Assembly: GCA_029777095.1 (NCBI GenBank)
Contig: JAKOTS010000019.1
Span: forward strand, 1 to 64,000
From: Actinomycetes bacterium
GTDB taxonomy: Bacteria > Actinomycetota > Actinomycetes > Actinomycetales > Microbacteriaceae
Length of the DNA: 64,000 nt
Direction: 5' to 3'
Both the position numbers and the translations under genes were made by a program. Shown in pieces: positions 15,113 through 46,317 of the stretch. Below the pieces are notes generated by a model. The model saw nothing but the letters and a program-made list of their open reading frames with translations. It was not told where the DNA came from and ran no database searches. Every line of letters begins with the position of its first letter. The first letter of the stretch is position 1.

Positions 15113-16423
15113 CTAGCGATCAGTTCGCGTGATGGCCGGGATGACGTACGACTGGTCGATGACCTCGCGCGCCGGCTCGTACATGCGCAGCACGGGTCGG
15201 AAATCACCCTCCGGGGTTGGGAGCCAGTTGGCACGGGCGCGCGGGTCGGCCGGTTCTTCCCGCGACATCGTGATGACGAGGGAGCCGTCTGCCTCGTATT
15301 GGATTCCGGGTGTGCGGTCGCCGATCGAGTAGCGCTTGATCGGGTTCGCAACGAGGTAGTAGTTGGGCACGTCATACATCGTCAACGACCAGAAGGCACC
15401 CACAGTGGGGGTGGGGTCAAGGTGCAACGTGTACGTGTGGGCACCCGAAATGGGTTCGCCCAGTTCGTCGACATACGTGGCCGTGTAGGCCGCTTCGAAC
15501 GACTGATTGCCCCAGAGACCCCCAAGCGCCGCCCCCGCACGCTGCACGAGGCGGCGCTGCGGGTCGGCGATGATGAATTCTGGGTCGTTCTCTGACCCGA
15601 CTTCGAAGTAGTCGAGGTTGTAGTCGAACGAGTGATACGCGAGGTTCCAGCCGTTGACGATCGCGTTTCCACCGCCGGAGGCGAGCACGCCCTCGAGCGT
15701 GGCCTTTGCTGCAAGGTAGCCGCTCTCGCGCGTCGCAGCGCCCTCCGGCGTGTCAGCGCTCAATGCCGCGACGTTGGCCGCCTGCAGAGCCTCGTCGCGG
15801 GGCGCCGGCGGGAACTCGCGGCTCCAGGTAAGGTACTTCGCCCAGAAGTCCCCGGCTTCGCTTGCTTCTTCGGCGGGATGGGGGAGCCCCTTCGGAACCG
15901 CCGTCGCATCGAGCGGCGCGAGCGTGGTCGCATCCTGAAGCGCGTGGACCTCGGGCAGATCGTCATCGCCCGACACCGCCCAGCGTCCGACAATTGATGC
16001 GATCCGGGTCGGCACGCGCACCACAGTGGTCGCGGCCGGCGCATCGCCAGCCCAGTCGTGAGGAACGAGCAGGAACTGCGCGGCGTCGCTTCCCGTGGCG
16101 CGGTGCCCGATGTATGCGAAGTTGTCGGTCCAGGCGCTGACGAACTGCAAGACGAAGTAGCGGCCGGCCGTGGCTGGTACCGAGAGCAGGATCGGTCCCA
16201 CGCTCAGGTCAAGCTGCGCCATCGAATAGAGCGTGTCGTTGTTGATCGTGACGAACGTGTCGTTGTGGTCGGCGAGGGTGCGCGCGTGGCTGAACGTATT
16301 CCAAGCCGCCGCGGGGTTCTTGCCAACACCGGTCGTTTCGTAACGCGTCACCTGATCGAGGTTGAACACGAGCGGGAAGCCGAACATGTAGGCGGTGACG
16401 AGATCGTCTGGTGTGGTGGTCAT
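15113..16423 (-). CDS. DUF1254-DUF1214 fusion protein
   Basis: DTFVTINNDTLYSMAQLDLS (DUF1254); FWSLTMYDVPNYYLVANPIKRYSIGDRTPG...NWLPTPEGDFRPVLRMYEP (DUF1214). Confidence 0.88.
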   Translation of the reverse strand: MTTTPDDLVTAYMFGFPLVFNLDQVTRYETTGVGKNPAAAWNTFSHARTLADHNDTFVTINNDTLYSMAQLDLSVGPILLSVPATAGRYFVLQFVSAWTDNFAYIGHRATGSDAAQFLLVPHDWAGDAPAATTVVRVPTRIASIVGRWAVSGDDDLPEVHALQDATTLAPLDATAVPKGLPHPAEEASEAGDFWAKYLTWSREFPPAPRDEALQAANVAALSADTPEGAATRESGYLAAKATLEGVLASGGGNAIVNGWNLAYHSFDYNLDYFEVGSENDPEFIIADPQRRLVQRAGAALGGLWGNQSFEAAYTATYVDELGEPISGAHTYTLHLDPTPTVGAFWSLTMYDVPNYYLVANPIKRYSIGDRTPGIQYEADGSLVITMSREEPADPRARANWLPTPEGDFRPVLRMYEPAREVIDQSYVIPAITRTDR

Positions 16424-17229: not shown

Positions 17230-18174
17230 CTAGGCGTTGATCGCGGGGAACGACCAGCGTCCCTCAAGGATTTCAGCGCGCGGGCGGTACAACCGCACGA
17301 GATAGTTCCAGCCCTCGGTCAGCGGGAGGAAGTTCGGGGCCGCGGGATCTCCACCAAATCGAACCGTGATCGAGCCATCCGCGTCGCGGATGCCCGTCAC
17401 GCTGTTGACGCTGTAGATACCAAACTCGTTCGGTTCGAAGTATCCATCGGCGTTGTAGAGCGAGATCGACCAGAAGCCGTCTACCGGAACGTCCCCAACG
17501 GTGAGCGTGTATTCACCAACGGGAAGTCCCGGCTCAACGTTGATGTACGACGCCTCAGCCTCGGGGAGCCCGCCCCAGCCCGATGCGGTTCCGAGCAGGT
17601 GACGAAGCGGGTCAACCGCTTCGCGGGGCCCGAAACAGCCTTCGAGCCCACTCAGTCCCTTCGAAAGTGTGAGCACCGCATCGCGCGTCTCAGTGAACGA
17701 CTCGACGTCGAAGGGCGCCGGTGCAAATTGGCCCGCCGCGGCCGACGTCAGGCTGAGCCCGTCCTGCAGGGCGTTGACCACCGCAACGTCGTCGGCATTC
17801 TCGGGATCGACAAGGATGCGCGCCGCCGCGAGGACGAAGTCGCTGCCGAGCTCTTCGGCGGTCAGCTCGTACGTGCCCGCGGCGTGGAGCACTCGGTTGA
17901 TGTAGTGATCCTGGTTGACCAGCATCATTGAGATATACCGGCCGCTGGCTTCAGGAATCGTGACCGTCGCGCCCTGCGATACGTCGATGATTGCCGCGCT
18001 GTACAGCGTGTCGCGGTTCATGCGGATGACGGTTTGCTCTTCGACCGGGGTGGGGCCACGGAAGTGGTTCCAGACGTTCGACGAACCGGCCGCGGCCGCG
18101 ATTCCAGCAAACATCCGCTCGCTCTCAACGCGTGCAAAATTCTCGAACGTGACTAGAGCAGGCAGAGTGGTCAT
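17230..18174 (-). CDS. DUF1254-DUF1214 protein
   Basis: VIRMNRDTLYSAAIIDVS; FWSISLYNADGYFEPNEFGIYSVNSVTG; ATG at 18174. Confidence 0.85.
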   Translation of the reverse strand: MTTLPALVTFENFARVESERMFAGIAAAAGSSNVWNHFRGPTPVEEQTVIRMNRDTLYSAAIIDVSQGATVTIPEASGRYISMMLVNQDHYINRVLHAAGTYELTAEELGSDFVLAAARILVDPENADDVAVVNALQDGLSLTSAAAGQFAPAPFDVESFTETRDAVLTLSKGLSGLEGCFGPREAVDPLRHLLGTASGWGGLPEAEASYINVEPGLPVGEYTLTVGDVPVDGFWSISLYNADGYFEPNEFGIYSVNSVTGIRDADGSITVRFGGDPAAPNFLPLTEGWNYLVRLYRPRAEILEGRWSFPAINA

Positions 18175-42339: not shown

Positions 42340-43428
42340 TTATGAACGCAGCCCGCGAATCGTCCGTGACAGCACGCCGACGATGTGCCGAAGCATCCCG
42401 AGAAACACAATCGCCCACACCACAACCGCGATGATGAGCGTGATGTTGCCGATCGATTCGACGAGCGGCAACGATTCGACCCGCCCGAGGTTGATTGACG
42501 CGACCGCGAACATCCCGATCGGAAAAACGATGGACCAGAGCGCCGCCACGTAGCCCAACGGAATCTTGTGCATCACGTGTCGCCACACGCCCGCGCCGAT
42601 GAGCAGCGGAATAAGCCACACGCAGAAACTCCAGAAGACGACGATGGTCCCGCCGATCAGCGTGCGCGTCGCATCGATCATCGGGGTCGACTGCATGTCG
42701 ACGATGTTGGTGCCGGCGACCACCGCGATCGCCATCGCGCCCATCGCCACCCAAAATGGGGGCTCGAACTCACGCGGCGTGATGCCGAAGTGGATGATGC
42801 GCAGCAGGACGAGCAACGCGACGCCGGCATAGATGGCGACCCCGACCGTCCACGACAGCACGGCGAGGATGCTGATCCACTCCGCATCCTCAGCAAAAAG
42901 GGGTTGCACCTGCGCCATGCCAATTGCGAGCGACTGGCTCGCCACTGCCCAGACGAACCAGGTACCGTTCGTGCGCGCCAGGATCGGTCTGCCGTCGCGA
43001 GTCATGAATACCTGCCATGGCAGCAGGTAGCCGAACACAAACCACAACACCGCACCAAAAAACAGCAGCGGCACCGCAATGCTCCCCAGGCCTTCTTGCA
43101 GCAGCCGGACCGCGAGCACATCGGTACCCGCAACGACCGTGAAGTACGCGAATGCCGTTTCGGGATCGCGGAAGTCGTGCAGCATGGCGCTTCGATGCGT
43201 GACCGCCCGCCAGATGTACAGCACCCAGAGCACCACGAACGAGGCCGCTGTGAGCCAAAGCAGCACCCTAGACAGCACGACGATACCCCCGAGATCGAGC
43301 CCGATCGAGACGATTCCGGTGGCCATGACGAGCGCAAAATAGCCGGGCGAGAGGTGCTCGATTTCGGCTCTCAGCGCCGGCCCGCGAGCTGCCTGTCGTT
43401 TCGCGTCCGGCTCACTGAGTTCTTGCAT
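42340..43428 (-). CDS. TDT/SLAC1 family transporter (TehA-like)
   Basis: EIEHLSPGYFALVMATGIVSIGLDLGG and about ten TM helices. Confidence 0.85.
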   Translation of the reverse strand: MQELSEPDAKRQAARGPALRAEIEHLSPGYFALVMATGIVSIGLDLGGIVVLSRVLLWLTAASFVVLWVLYIWRAVTHRSAMLHDFRDPETAFAYFTVVAGTDVLAVRLLQEGLGSIAVPLLFFGAVLWFVFGYLLPWQVFMTRDGRPILARTNGTWFVWAVASQSLAIGMAQVQPLFAEDAEWISILAVLSWTVGVAIYAGVALLVLLRIIHFGITPREFEPPFWVAMGAMAIAVVAGTNIVDMQSTPMIDATRTLIGGTIVVFWSFCVWLIPLLIGAGVWRHVMHKIPLGYVAALWSIVFPIGMFAVASINLGRVESLPLVESIGNITLIIAVVVWAIVFLGMLRHIVGVLSRTIRGLRS

Positions 43429-43436
43429 ACTTCAGG

Positions 43437-44423
43437 TTAGGCAGAATGGCGTTCGTGCGGCGGCTTGCTACGGAGCCGTCCGACCGGTGGGTCCATCGCG
43501 GTTGCGCTTTCTGCCGCGGTGAGCCGGGCGCCCGCAATGCGCGACGCGCGAAATGCCCACCACGCAAGTGGATGCCGGTTGCCCCGGTGGTACACGCGAT
43601 GCGGTGCCGGTCGACCTTTGCCGCCGGCCACACCGACCGCGGCACACAAGCTGGGCAAGATGGCGCGCGCCGCCTCTGCGTACCCCTCATCAGATGGATG
43701 CAGGTGGTCACGCTCGGAGAACAGCTCTGGGGTCTTTCGAAACAGTGTGCCGAGCGTGTCTGCGAGCGAAACAGATCTGCCGCCTTCGCGGAGCACCACG
43801 AATGCTTGGCTCGTCGCGAGCAGCCGGCACCACCAGTGCAAGAAAAACCGCAGCGGTTCAAAAATTGGATGCACGGCACCCAGGTCGGCACACGTCGCGA
43901 CAATGACTTGGGAGCCTCTCCCCCGCAGCTCGCGCACCACCTCCATCAACGGAATCAGCGAGTCTGTGAGGCGACGCCCGTGCATGACGTCGTTGACACC
44001 GATGATGATGAGCACAACATCTGGCGTGCTCAGTGTGTGCAGCCGCACCAGCTGGGTGATCAGGCCGGTGCTCTCGGCCCCCACTTCGGCCACATTCGTC
44101 AGGTCGACGGGGCGACCGGATGCCTCAGACAACTCTTTCGCCAAGAGCACGCCGGGTGCGAAGTCAGGGTCTTTTGCGCCGTAACCGACAGCGAGCGAGT
44201 CCCCCATCACCCCAAACCGAATCGGTGCGCCCGCTCGCTCGGCGCCGTACACCCCGCTGTGCGGAAACACCGATCTCATTCGGGTGGGCACCAGCCGCTC
44301 GCGAGCGATCAAGGCCTCCGCCGCCATCACCGCCCCGAGTGTCAGAACGCTGACGACCGTCGAGACCGTGACCACCAACGTGTCGCGTGCGAGCCGTCGT
44401 TCGCTACGGGTGATTTTGGCCAT
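43437..44423 (-). CDS. SGNH/GDSL hydrolase with N-terminal TM
   Basis: FGVMGDSLAVGYGAKDPD, IIGVNDVMHGR, RDHLHPSDEGY; TM VVTVSTVVSVLTLGAVMAAEAL. Confidence 0.88.
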   Translation of the reverse strand: MAKITRSERRLARDTLVVTVSTVVSVLTLGAVMAAEALIARERLVPTRMRSVFPHSGVYGAERAGAPIRFGVMGDSLAVGYGAKDPDFAPGVLLAKELSEASGRPVDLTNVAEVGAESTGLITQLVRLHTLSTPDVVLIIIGVNDVMHGRRLTDSLIPLMEVVRELRGRGSQVIVATCADLGAVHPIFEPLRFFLHWWCRLLATSQAFVVLREGGRSVSLADTLGTLFRKTPELFSERDHLHPSDEGYAEAARAILPSLCAAVGVAGGKGRPAPHRVYHRGNRHPLAWWAFRASRIAGARLTAAESATAMDPPVGRLRSKPPHERHSA

Positions 44424-44504
44424 GATGTCCCCCCCTGCTTCATTGCCAGGAACCATTTGATCGTCAGCGTACGCCCAACCTCAGACGCGGAGGCGAATCT
44501 CGTC

Positions 44505-44798
44505 TCAGCCGTTTCGCGCGACCCGCCGGTTGTGCGTCGCGATTGACAACAGTGCCGCCCCCGGACCCGCAAGCACGAGCAAAAAGGGCCAGTACCAGCC
44601 GGTCGTACCAAGCAGAACGGCGCCAATCACCAGCAGCGCCGCACCGAGCGCTCTCAGCGAAGTCGAGCCCAGCGGGCGCACCTGGGCGTTCCGCCAATAC
44701 GGGATCTTGGTCGACGGGTTTGCACGCAGCGTCATACCGAGGGCGCGTTGGAATAGCAGCATCCCGAGCAGTGCCGTGAGCCCACCGAATACCGTCAT
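44505..44798 (-). CDS. small membrane protein of unknown function
   Basis: 97 aa with hydrophobic segments VFGGLTALLGMLLF and ALGAALLVIGAVLLGTTGWYWPFLLVLAGPGAALL. Confidence 0.65.
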   Translation of the reverse strand: MTVFGGLTALLGMLLFQRALGMTLRANPSTKIPYWRNAQVRPLGSTSLRALGAALLVIGAVLLGTTGWYWPFLLVLAGPGAALLSIATHNRRVARNG

Positions 44799-44820: not shown

Positions 44821-45510
44821 TCAGGATGCCTCGGCCCGCGGCCCTCCGCCTTTGAGGTCAGGCGGCGAGAGCTCGAACTGCCGCGCAAGTGCGTACGCCG
44901 CGCCCCGATCTCGTTCATCGACGACGAATACCCGGCCGATGAGCAGTGCCGCGTGATGCGGTACATCAATCCGGATCATGCCTGCGGGCGTATCGCCGTT
45001 CCATCCCTGCGCGCTGAGAAAGAACGCACCGGCGGCGCTTCCTGTGGTGCGCGTGCCGACATAGGCAAAGTTTGCGCCGCTCCGCGGATCGGTGAACTGA
45101 ATGCTGTAGTAGCGATGCTCCATTGCCGGCACATGCAGCACCCGCGGGCCGGGCTTCACATCAAGCCAGCCACAGAGGTAGAGCACATCATCGGTGCCGG
45201 TAGCCAGCACGCTGCCAGAAGTCGCAGACTGGGACGAACTCAGGGGAACAGCGTAGAGCGTGTTCACCGGAATGGGACCGCCGCCCATCCCCCGCTTCGT
45301 AAAAATGCGTTTGAACCCACCGACGGTGATTCGCGGCCAGAAGAAGATGAAGATTGCGGTGCCAACTACCCACACGGGCACGGCCACCGACACGAGCAGG
45401 ATGATCGACGAGGGTCCGCCGCTTGCGAGTCGCTGGACGATCACCCAGGCGAAAATCATCATGATCACGATGGTGACCAGCACGCCGTGCTTGAGGATGA
45501 GACGGTTCAC
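44821..45510 (-). CDS. membrane-anchored DUF1254 protein
   Basis: N-terminal TMs VLVTIVIMMIFAWVIV and IILLVSVAVPVWVVGTAIFIFFW; DDVLYLCGWLDVKPGPRVLHVPAMEHRYYSIQFTDPRSGANFAYVGTRTTGS. Confidence 0.82.
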   Translation of the reverse strand: MNRLILKHGVLVTIVIMMIFAWVIVQRLASGGPSSIILLVSVAVPVWVVGTAIFIFFWPRITVGGFKRIFTKRGMGGGPIPVNTLYAVPLSSSQSATSGSVLATGTDDVLYLCGWLDVKPGPRVLHVPAMEHRYYSIQFTDPRSGANFAYVGTRTTGSAAGAFFLSAQGWNGDTPAGMIRIDVPHHAALLIGRVFVVDERDRGAAYALARQFELSPPDLKGGGPRAEAS

Positions 45511-46112
45511 GGCCGCCGCTCAACAACCGAAGGCAGCTGGTAGGAACCATCGAGGATGGCCGGGCCCGGCAGGTAGGCACGCAGCATCAGCTTGAACCGG
45601 CCGGATGGTGTGGGCAGCCAGTTCGTGCCCAGCTCCACTGTTTCATACGCCTGCAGCAGGATGTCGACGGAGCCGTCGGCATTCGGCACCAAGCCGGCGC
45701 GGCTGTCTACGCTCGCACGGCCAGACGCTCCAGCAACGATGTAACCGGCGGTGTCCGTCGCGGTGAGCGACCAGAAGGCACTGTGTGGTGGCAGCTGGCC
45801 GGGCGGAAAGTGCAGGCAGTAGGTGTGGGCGCCCCGCAACAACTCCCCTGCCGCATCGCGGGTCGCCGTCCAATAGGCGGCCTCTTCGAAGACGTTCACA
45901 ACGGGGAGAGCCTTTTGCAGCGCGGCGCGCACGACAATCCCGTTGCCGGGTTGCCCGGCCCCGCGGATCGAGCTCCAGCCGTTAACCGTCGTGGTCTGGC
46001 TGCGTGCGACAGCGTTCAACACCACGACCGCGGTCAAGTACCCAAACGCCAGGCCCATGATCAGCCCTTGCACAATGCCGGAGCCCGCCACCCACGCGAA
46101 GAAGGCGCTCAT
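45507..46112 (-). CDS. membrane-anchored DUF1214 protein
   Basis: N-terminal TM; AYWTATRDAAGELLRGAHTYCLHFPPGQLPPHSAFWSLTATDTAGYIV...NWLPTPSGRFKLMLRAYLP; 4-bp overlap with DUF1254 gene. Confidence 0.82.
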   Translation of the reverse strand: MSAFFAWVAGSGIVQGLIMGLAFGYLTAVVVLNAVARSQTTTVNGWSSIRGAGQPGNGIVVRAALQKALPVVNVFEEAAYWTATRDAAGELLRGAHTYCLHFPPGQLPPHSAFWSLTATDTAGYIVAGASGRASVDSRAGLVPNADGSVDILLQAYETVELGTNWLPTPSGRFKLMLRAYLPGPAILDGSYQLPSVVERRP

Positions 46113-46125
46113 GCCGCAACCCGCG

Positions 46126-46317
46126 TCACAGCGCGCCGATCCGGAGCAGCACCACGACCGTCACGATCACGGCGACAGAAAGGAGCAGAATCGACCACCC
46201 CTGCCAAGTCGCCGGGTGCCAGCCCACGCCCACCCCATTGCGACGGAACCAGGGCCGGTGCTGCTTGCCTGCCGCGCTCTTGACATTGCTGGGCGGCTGA
46301 GGTGTGTCAGTGGACAT
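46126..46317 (-). CDS. 63-aa single-TM protein, possible subunit of the split DUF1214/DUF1254 cassette
   Basis: MSTDTPQPPSNVKSAAGKQHRPWFRRNGVGVGWHPATWQGWSILLLSVAVIVTVVVLLRIGAL; ends 13 bp before the DUF1214 start. Confidence 0.65.
   Translation of the reverse strand: MSTDTPQPPSNVKSAAGKQHRPWFRRNGVGVGWHPATWQGWSILLLSVAVIVTVVVLLRIGAL

Follow-up and report, generated by a model that had tools for sequence, protein, structure and literature searches.

The window, the whole 64,000-nucleotide stretch of DNA analyzed here, contains three tightly packed genes in which the DUF1214 and DUF1254 domains, fused in soluble proteins encoded elsewhere in the same window, are carried by separate proteins with N-terminal transmembrane (TM) segments. 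This arrangement raises three questions: (i) do the two split proteins form a unit, (ii) does the small membrane protein encoded immediately upstream belong to it and (iii) on which side of the membrane would the two domains meet?

All three genes lie on the minus strand. The first encodes a 63-residue single-TM protein (46126..46317) with the segment PWFRRNGVGVGWHPATWQGW immediately N-terminal to its TM; this ORF has no match in Pfam or NCBIfam. It is followed after 13 nt by the ATG start of a 201-residue DUF1214 protein (45507..46112; PF06742, E=1.4e-28, 100.1 bits against a Pfam cut-off of 25), which has one TM at residues ~17–35 by hydropathy and its domain at residues 77–183. The third gene starts with GTG and encodes a 229-residue DUF1254 protein (44821..45510; PF06863, E=9.1e-28, 97.5 bits against a cut-off of 22.2) with two TMs (~10–28 and ~36–54) ahead of the domain at residues 95–216. 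Low-confidence AlphaFold models of both split proteins have the same N-terminal helices. The last two genes share a 4-bp stop/start overlap, GTGA (45507..45510, minus strand), which suggests that their translation may be coupled. The GC content of the cassette shows no deviation that stands out. The packing, TM counts and overlap described in the initial annotation are all borne out, as is its assignment of soluble, fused proteins to 15113..16423 and 17230..18174 (minus strand). These are the two further DUF1214 proteins of the genome, each with both domains in one chain and, judged by sequence, neither a hydrophobic stretch nor a signal peptide at the N-terminus. They are encoded close together in the window and belong to different subfamilies.

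With the DUF1254 protein as query, TM-bearing homologues were found in nine other genomes among 350 of the host family. Eight are full-length at 55–66% identity and the ninth matches at 39% over residues 33–216; the remaining matches in these 350 genomes are far weaker and nearly all lie inside the long frames of fused proteins. A DUF1214 homologue (49–68% identity) is located directly upstream at all nine loci, and such side-by-side homologues in nine genomes are far above chance expectation. The spacing between the two genes is −4 or +1 in all 10 host-family pairs, the window pair included, and adjacency with DUF1214 preceding DUF1254 holds in 10/10 host-family pairs as well as in 10/10 alphaproteobacterial pairs; among both groups, no intact locus with just one split member was seen. 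Domain trees of DUF1214 and DUF1254 branch alike within the host family. The split genes are co-inherited as a conserved two-gene unit, and since no other neighbor is consistently conserved among the 10 host-family loci, we take the pair to be the unit. Among 397 sampled genomes from the phylum and 248 from the order, and with isolated ambiguous fragments such as the contig-end-truncated L043 set aside, the sole TM-type split match is the window's own, so the split variant seems to be limited to the host family within the phylum. The plasmid homologues examined by annotation or ORF are of the fused types.

The pair should also be considered in relation to the fused proteins from which a split form might have arisen. 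Both split proteins align by sequence to different parts of a single solved chain, 3u07 (VPA0106), and their best Foldseek matches are 3u07 and 3vb9/2p3y (VPA0735), although the query models are poor (single-chain predictions with a mean pLDDT of 52 and 46, made with only three window homologues as input, an alignment lacking the depth needed for calls on an interface), and the shared fold is therefore a low-confidence call. Nearly all columns that are >90% conserved in the fused proteins are retained across the two split chains. The retained signature residues are D108, Y111, D117, R133, Y134, R193 and D201 in DUF1254 and Y80, D86, Y98, W114, D146, N164, W165, R178, Y180 and P182 in DUF1214. 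The exceptions are N106, which is T in most split pairs, and Y119, which is T in all of them; because these two near-invariant positions are altered, the activity of the split pair may differ from that of the fused proteins. The window pair thus has the same two domains and signature residues as VPA0735 and VPA0106. Unlike those proteins, which hold both domains in one chain with DUF1254 first, it consists of two genes in the reverse order, bears N-terminal TMs and lacks part of the linker. Reversal of the domain order argues that the pair did not come from a simple break or stop codon in a fused gene. This also weighs against the possibility that the split proteins are functionless, decaying by-products of such a gene, as does the maintenance of open frames, TMs and signature residues at 39–66% identity across several genera. 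It is true that two of the three copies linked to the small gene are pseudogenes and that the split pair is absent from the window's congeners in the samples searched, but decay can hardly account for the pair as a whole, and we consider it very improbable.

The initial annotation allowed that the split might not be new because pairs occur in other phyla, and this proved correct. A short DUF1214 gene is present in 10 of 114 Alphaproteobacteria, with a DUF1254 gene directly after it in all 10 and an N-terminal TM on both products. We take this pair to be of the COG5402/COG5436 type. Like the window pair, it consists of separate, adjacent, TM-anchored proteins in the same order, and the split as such is therefore not new. 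The two types differ in that the alphaproteobacterial proteins have one TM each and likely face outward, whereas in nine of the 10 host-family pairs the DUF1254 protein has two TMs and is rich in K/R on their C-terminal side. The alphaproteobacterial sequences are also very diverged from the window pair and occupy a long separate branch. In the domain trees, host-family and alphaproteobacterial pairs each form one strongly supported clade, the two are well apart, and the host-family pairs are placed among fused proteins. The free trees hint at two independent origins of the split, but a single common split clade survives AU testing (p = 0.34 and 0.45 for the single domains and 0.81 for both together), and we do not claim two origins.

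The initial annotation further proposed that the small protein is a third subunit, and expected its gene to be conserved beside other split pairs. That expectation fails: the small gene is missing beside all nine other intact pairs in the 350 host-family genomes. What survives of the proposal is a link to one sub-lineage. Only two more of the 350 genomes, G518 and G551, carry a window-type small gene. Each also has an intact pair elsewhere, and such an overlap between small-gene and pair genomes would arise by chance with p ~6e-4 (36/60726, with the window genome excluded and kinship among genomes ignored). In both genomes the small gene is located directly upstream of a decayed DUF1214 gene (L221 on G518:C41 and L253 on G551:C1, remnants of small gene–DUF1214(–DUF1254) cassettes), at ~13 nt in G518 as in the window, so that it precedes an intact or decayed DUF1214 gene in 3/3 cases. 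The small ORF is open at both remnants and, with dN of 0.13 and dS of 0.58 between the two copies (dN/dS ~0.22), the gene is under purifying selection. At the same two loci the damage or loss extends to both pair members and in no case to just one.

These linkages, together with the selection on the small gene, count in favor of a three-part membrane complex with the 63-residue protein as an obligate subunit. The nine intact pairs that lack the gene are difficult to accommodate in such a complex, and so is an intact small gene that has outlasted the pair at the two decayed loci. Furthermore, seven of those nine pairs (L212, L213, L214, L216, L217, L218 and L219) have a TANNNT hexamer ending 6–7 nt ahead of the DUF1214 start, with no Shine–Dalgarno sequence. 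The hexamer has a background frequency of 0.6% at ATG/GTG codons, and neither the window nor L221 has it; in both, the small gene lies ahead of DUF1214. The hexamer is likely a leaderless promoter, in which case transcription of these seven pairs probably begins at DUF1214 itself. With a wider family of small proteins that exists without the pair (below), we regard the obligate three-part complex as improbable. The small gene is tied to one sub-lineage of the pair, neither generally needed by the pair nor lost with it, and its product is an occasional neighbor rather than a core subunit.

The wider family is evident from a scan of the genome collection for GWxPxTWQGW, which gave at least 115 stretches, many in Patescibacteria and some in Actinomycetota and Proteobacteria. 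Almost all of the 115 listed are small proteins with WFxRxxxGWGWTPxTWQGW preceding a TM. The window protein has the whole motif (WFxRxxxGxGWxPxTWQGW) and matches a profile of this broad family, built without it, at E=1.2e-14. It differs from the rest in being short, with one TM and a longer N-terminus, and only the window type was found adjoining DUF1214: neither DUF1214 nor DUF1254 is near the small gene at any of the 115 loci among the matches listed (836 kb, searched by tblastn and profile), and DUF1214 is wholly absent from 13 of 14 carrier genomes tested. The WFxRxxYGWGWTPxTWQGW proteins (L069–L183, for example L084 and L082) are mostly 80–105 residues long, are very common in Patescibacteria and have no Pfam or NCBIfam entry. 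A short membrane protein and an MsrB-looking protein recur among their neighbors, and there is no consistent partner gene among the 115 loci listed. Weak matches to the small protein in the window's genus were taken as chance, as was one on contig 50 of G000 that lies inside another gene; the protein has no plasmid match.

Our interpretation of these observations is that the pair at 44821–46112 is probably a membrane-tethered heterodimer that rebuilds a two-domain protein of the VPA0735/VPA0106 type, with the small protein outside its core. The DUF1214 and DUF1254 proteins would be produced together from their overlapping genes and anchored, the former by its single TM and the latter by a two-TM hairpin. 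The domains would then meet on one face of the membrane, restoring the combination that the soluble relatives carry in one chain. The 63-residue protein, from a separate family of small membrane proteins, would have become associated with a single sub-lineage of the pair, which it may tune or escort. A heterodimer is the most likely state given the retained residues, the 3u07 matches, the matching trees and the joint decay in the remnant loci. We infer both the heterodimer and its placement on the cytoplasmic face, the positive-inside rule being the sole basis of our topology calls.

For the nine pairs of the common form, the DUF1214 protein has no K/R ahead of its TM and 1–5 in the 20 residues that follow, and the DUF1254 protein has 1–2 K/R ahead of TM1, 0–2 in the loop and 3–5 directly past TM2. 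By the positive-inside rule this distribution would place both domains in the cytoplasm, most likely the side on which the common form is exposed. An overlooked, charged N-terminal extension of the DUF1214 protein is unlikely in the seven loci with a TANNNT hexamer, since the hexamer supports the annotated start. Past its TM, however, the DUF1214 protein is sparsely charged and carries an AVA-like motif, and for these reasons an outward or cleaved form of it keeps some probability. The diverged host-family pair L220 follows a different pattern: both of its proteins have a single TM with five K/R ahead and 1–2 after, and both domains look to be outside. In most of the alphaproteobacterial split proteins, K/R residues are likewise more numerous ahead of the TM than behind it. 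From these charge patterns, the two partners appear to switch membrane side jointly, which a complex would demand.

The alphaproteobacterial and L220 patterns would also fit a general arrangement in which both domains lie outside the cytoplasm, as they probably do in Alphaproteobacteria, and act on the envelope; the DUF1254 protein lmo1241 is upregulated alongside the envelope-stress response of Listeria (PMC12791056), in keeping with such a role. The common-form charge patterns point the other way, above all the 3–5 K/R directly after TM2 of DUF1254, and no signal peptide is apparent in the sequences of the window's fused relatives. An outward-facing window pair is consequently unlikely, though it retains appreciable weight. 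A fuller version of the cytoplasmic heterodimer holds that the common pair changed sides jointly relative to the outward alphaproteobacterial and L220 pairs, by way of the two-TM hairpin, and that the small TWQGW protein was recruited in one lineage. This combined proposal is tentative, with the balance leaning somewhat against it, but the predicted joint change of membrane side would provide a testable case of topology evolution.

The literature that we found contains no tested function for the fused DUF1254/DUF1214 family, despite the solved structures. Beyond lmo1241, the published leads are diverse: bll2664-bll2663, with DUF1254, belongs to the NnrR regulon of Bradyrhizobium (PMC6710368), CC_2518 responds to iron in Caulobacter (PMC3751524), and a Malassezia protein has been guessed to be a jelly-roll glycosyl hydrolase (PMC4634964). 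Our guess is that the family binds or hydrolyzes a ligand at the membrane surface. For the split pair, a possible substrate there is a hydrophobic or glycan ligand, although we think it rather unlikely that this specific suggestion is right. DUF1254/DUF1214 proteins are widespread, and the split pair offers a handle on them. Its natural division into two co-retained membrane proteins suggests that the domains are mutually dependent and act at a membrane surface, and it opens the two halves to separate deletion or tagging.

Closely downstream of the cassette (42340–44798, minus strand) are genes for a 97-residue membrane protein, a GDSL/SGNH hydrolase and a SLAC1-type channel. This arrangement is not common to the other pair loci; in the window, all three genes may be co-transcribed with the cassette.
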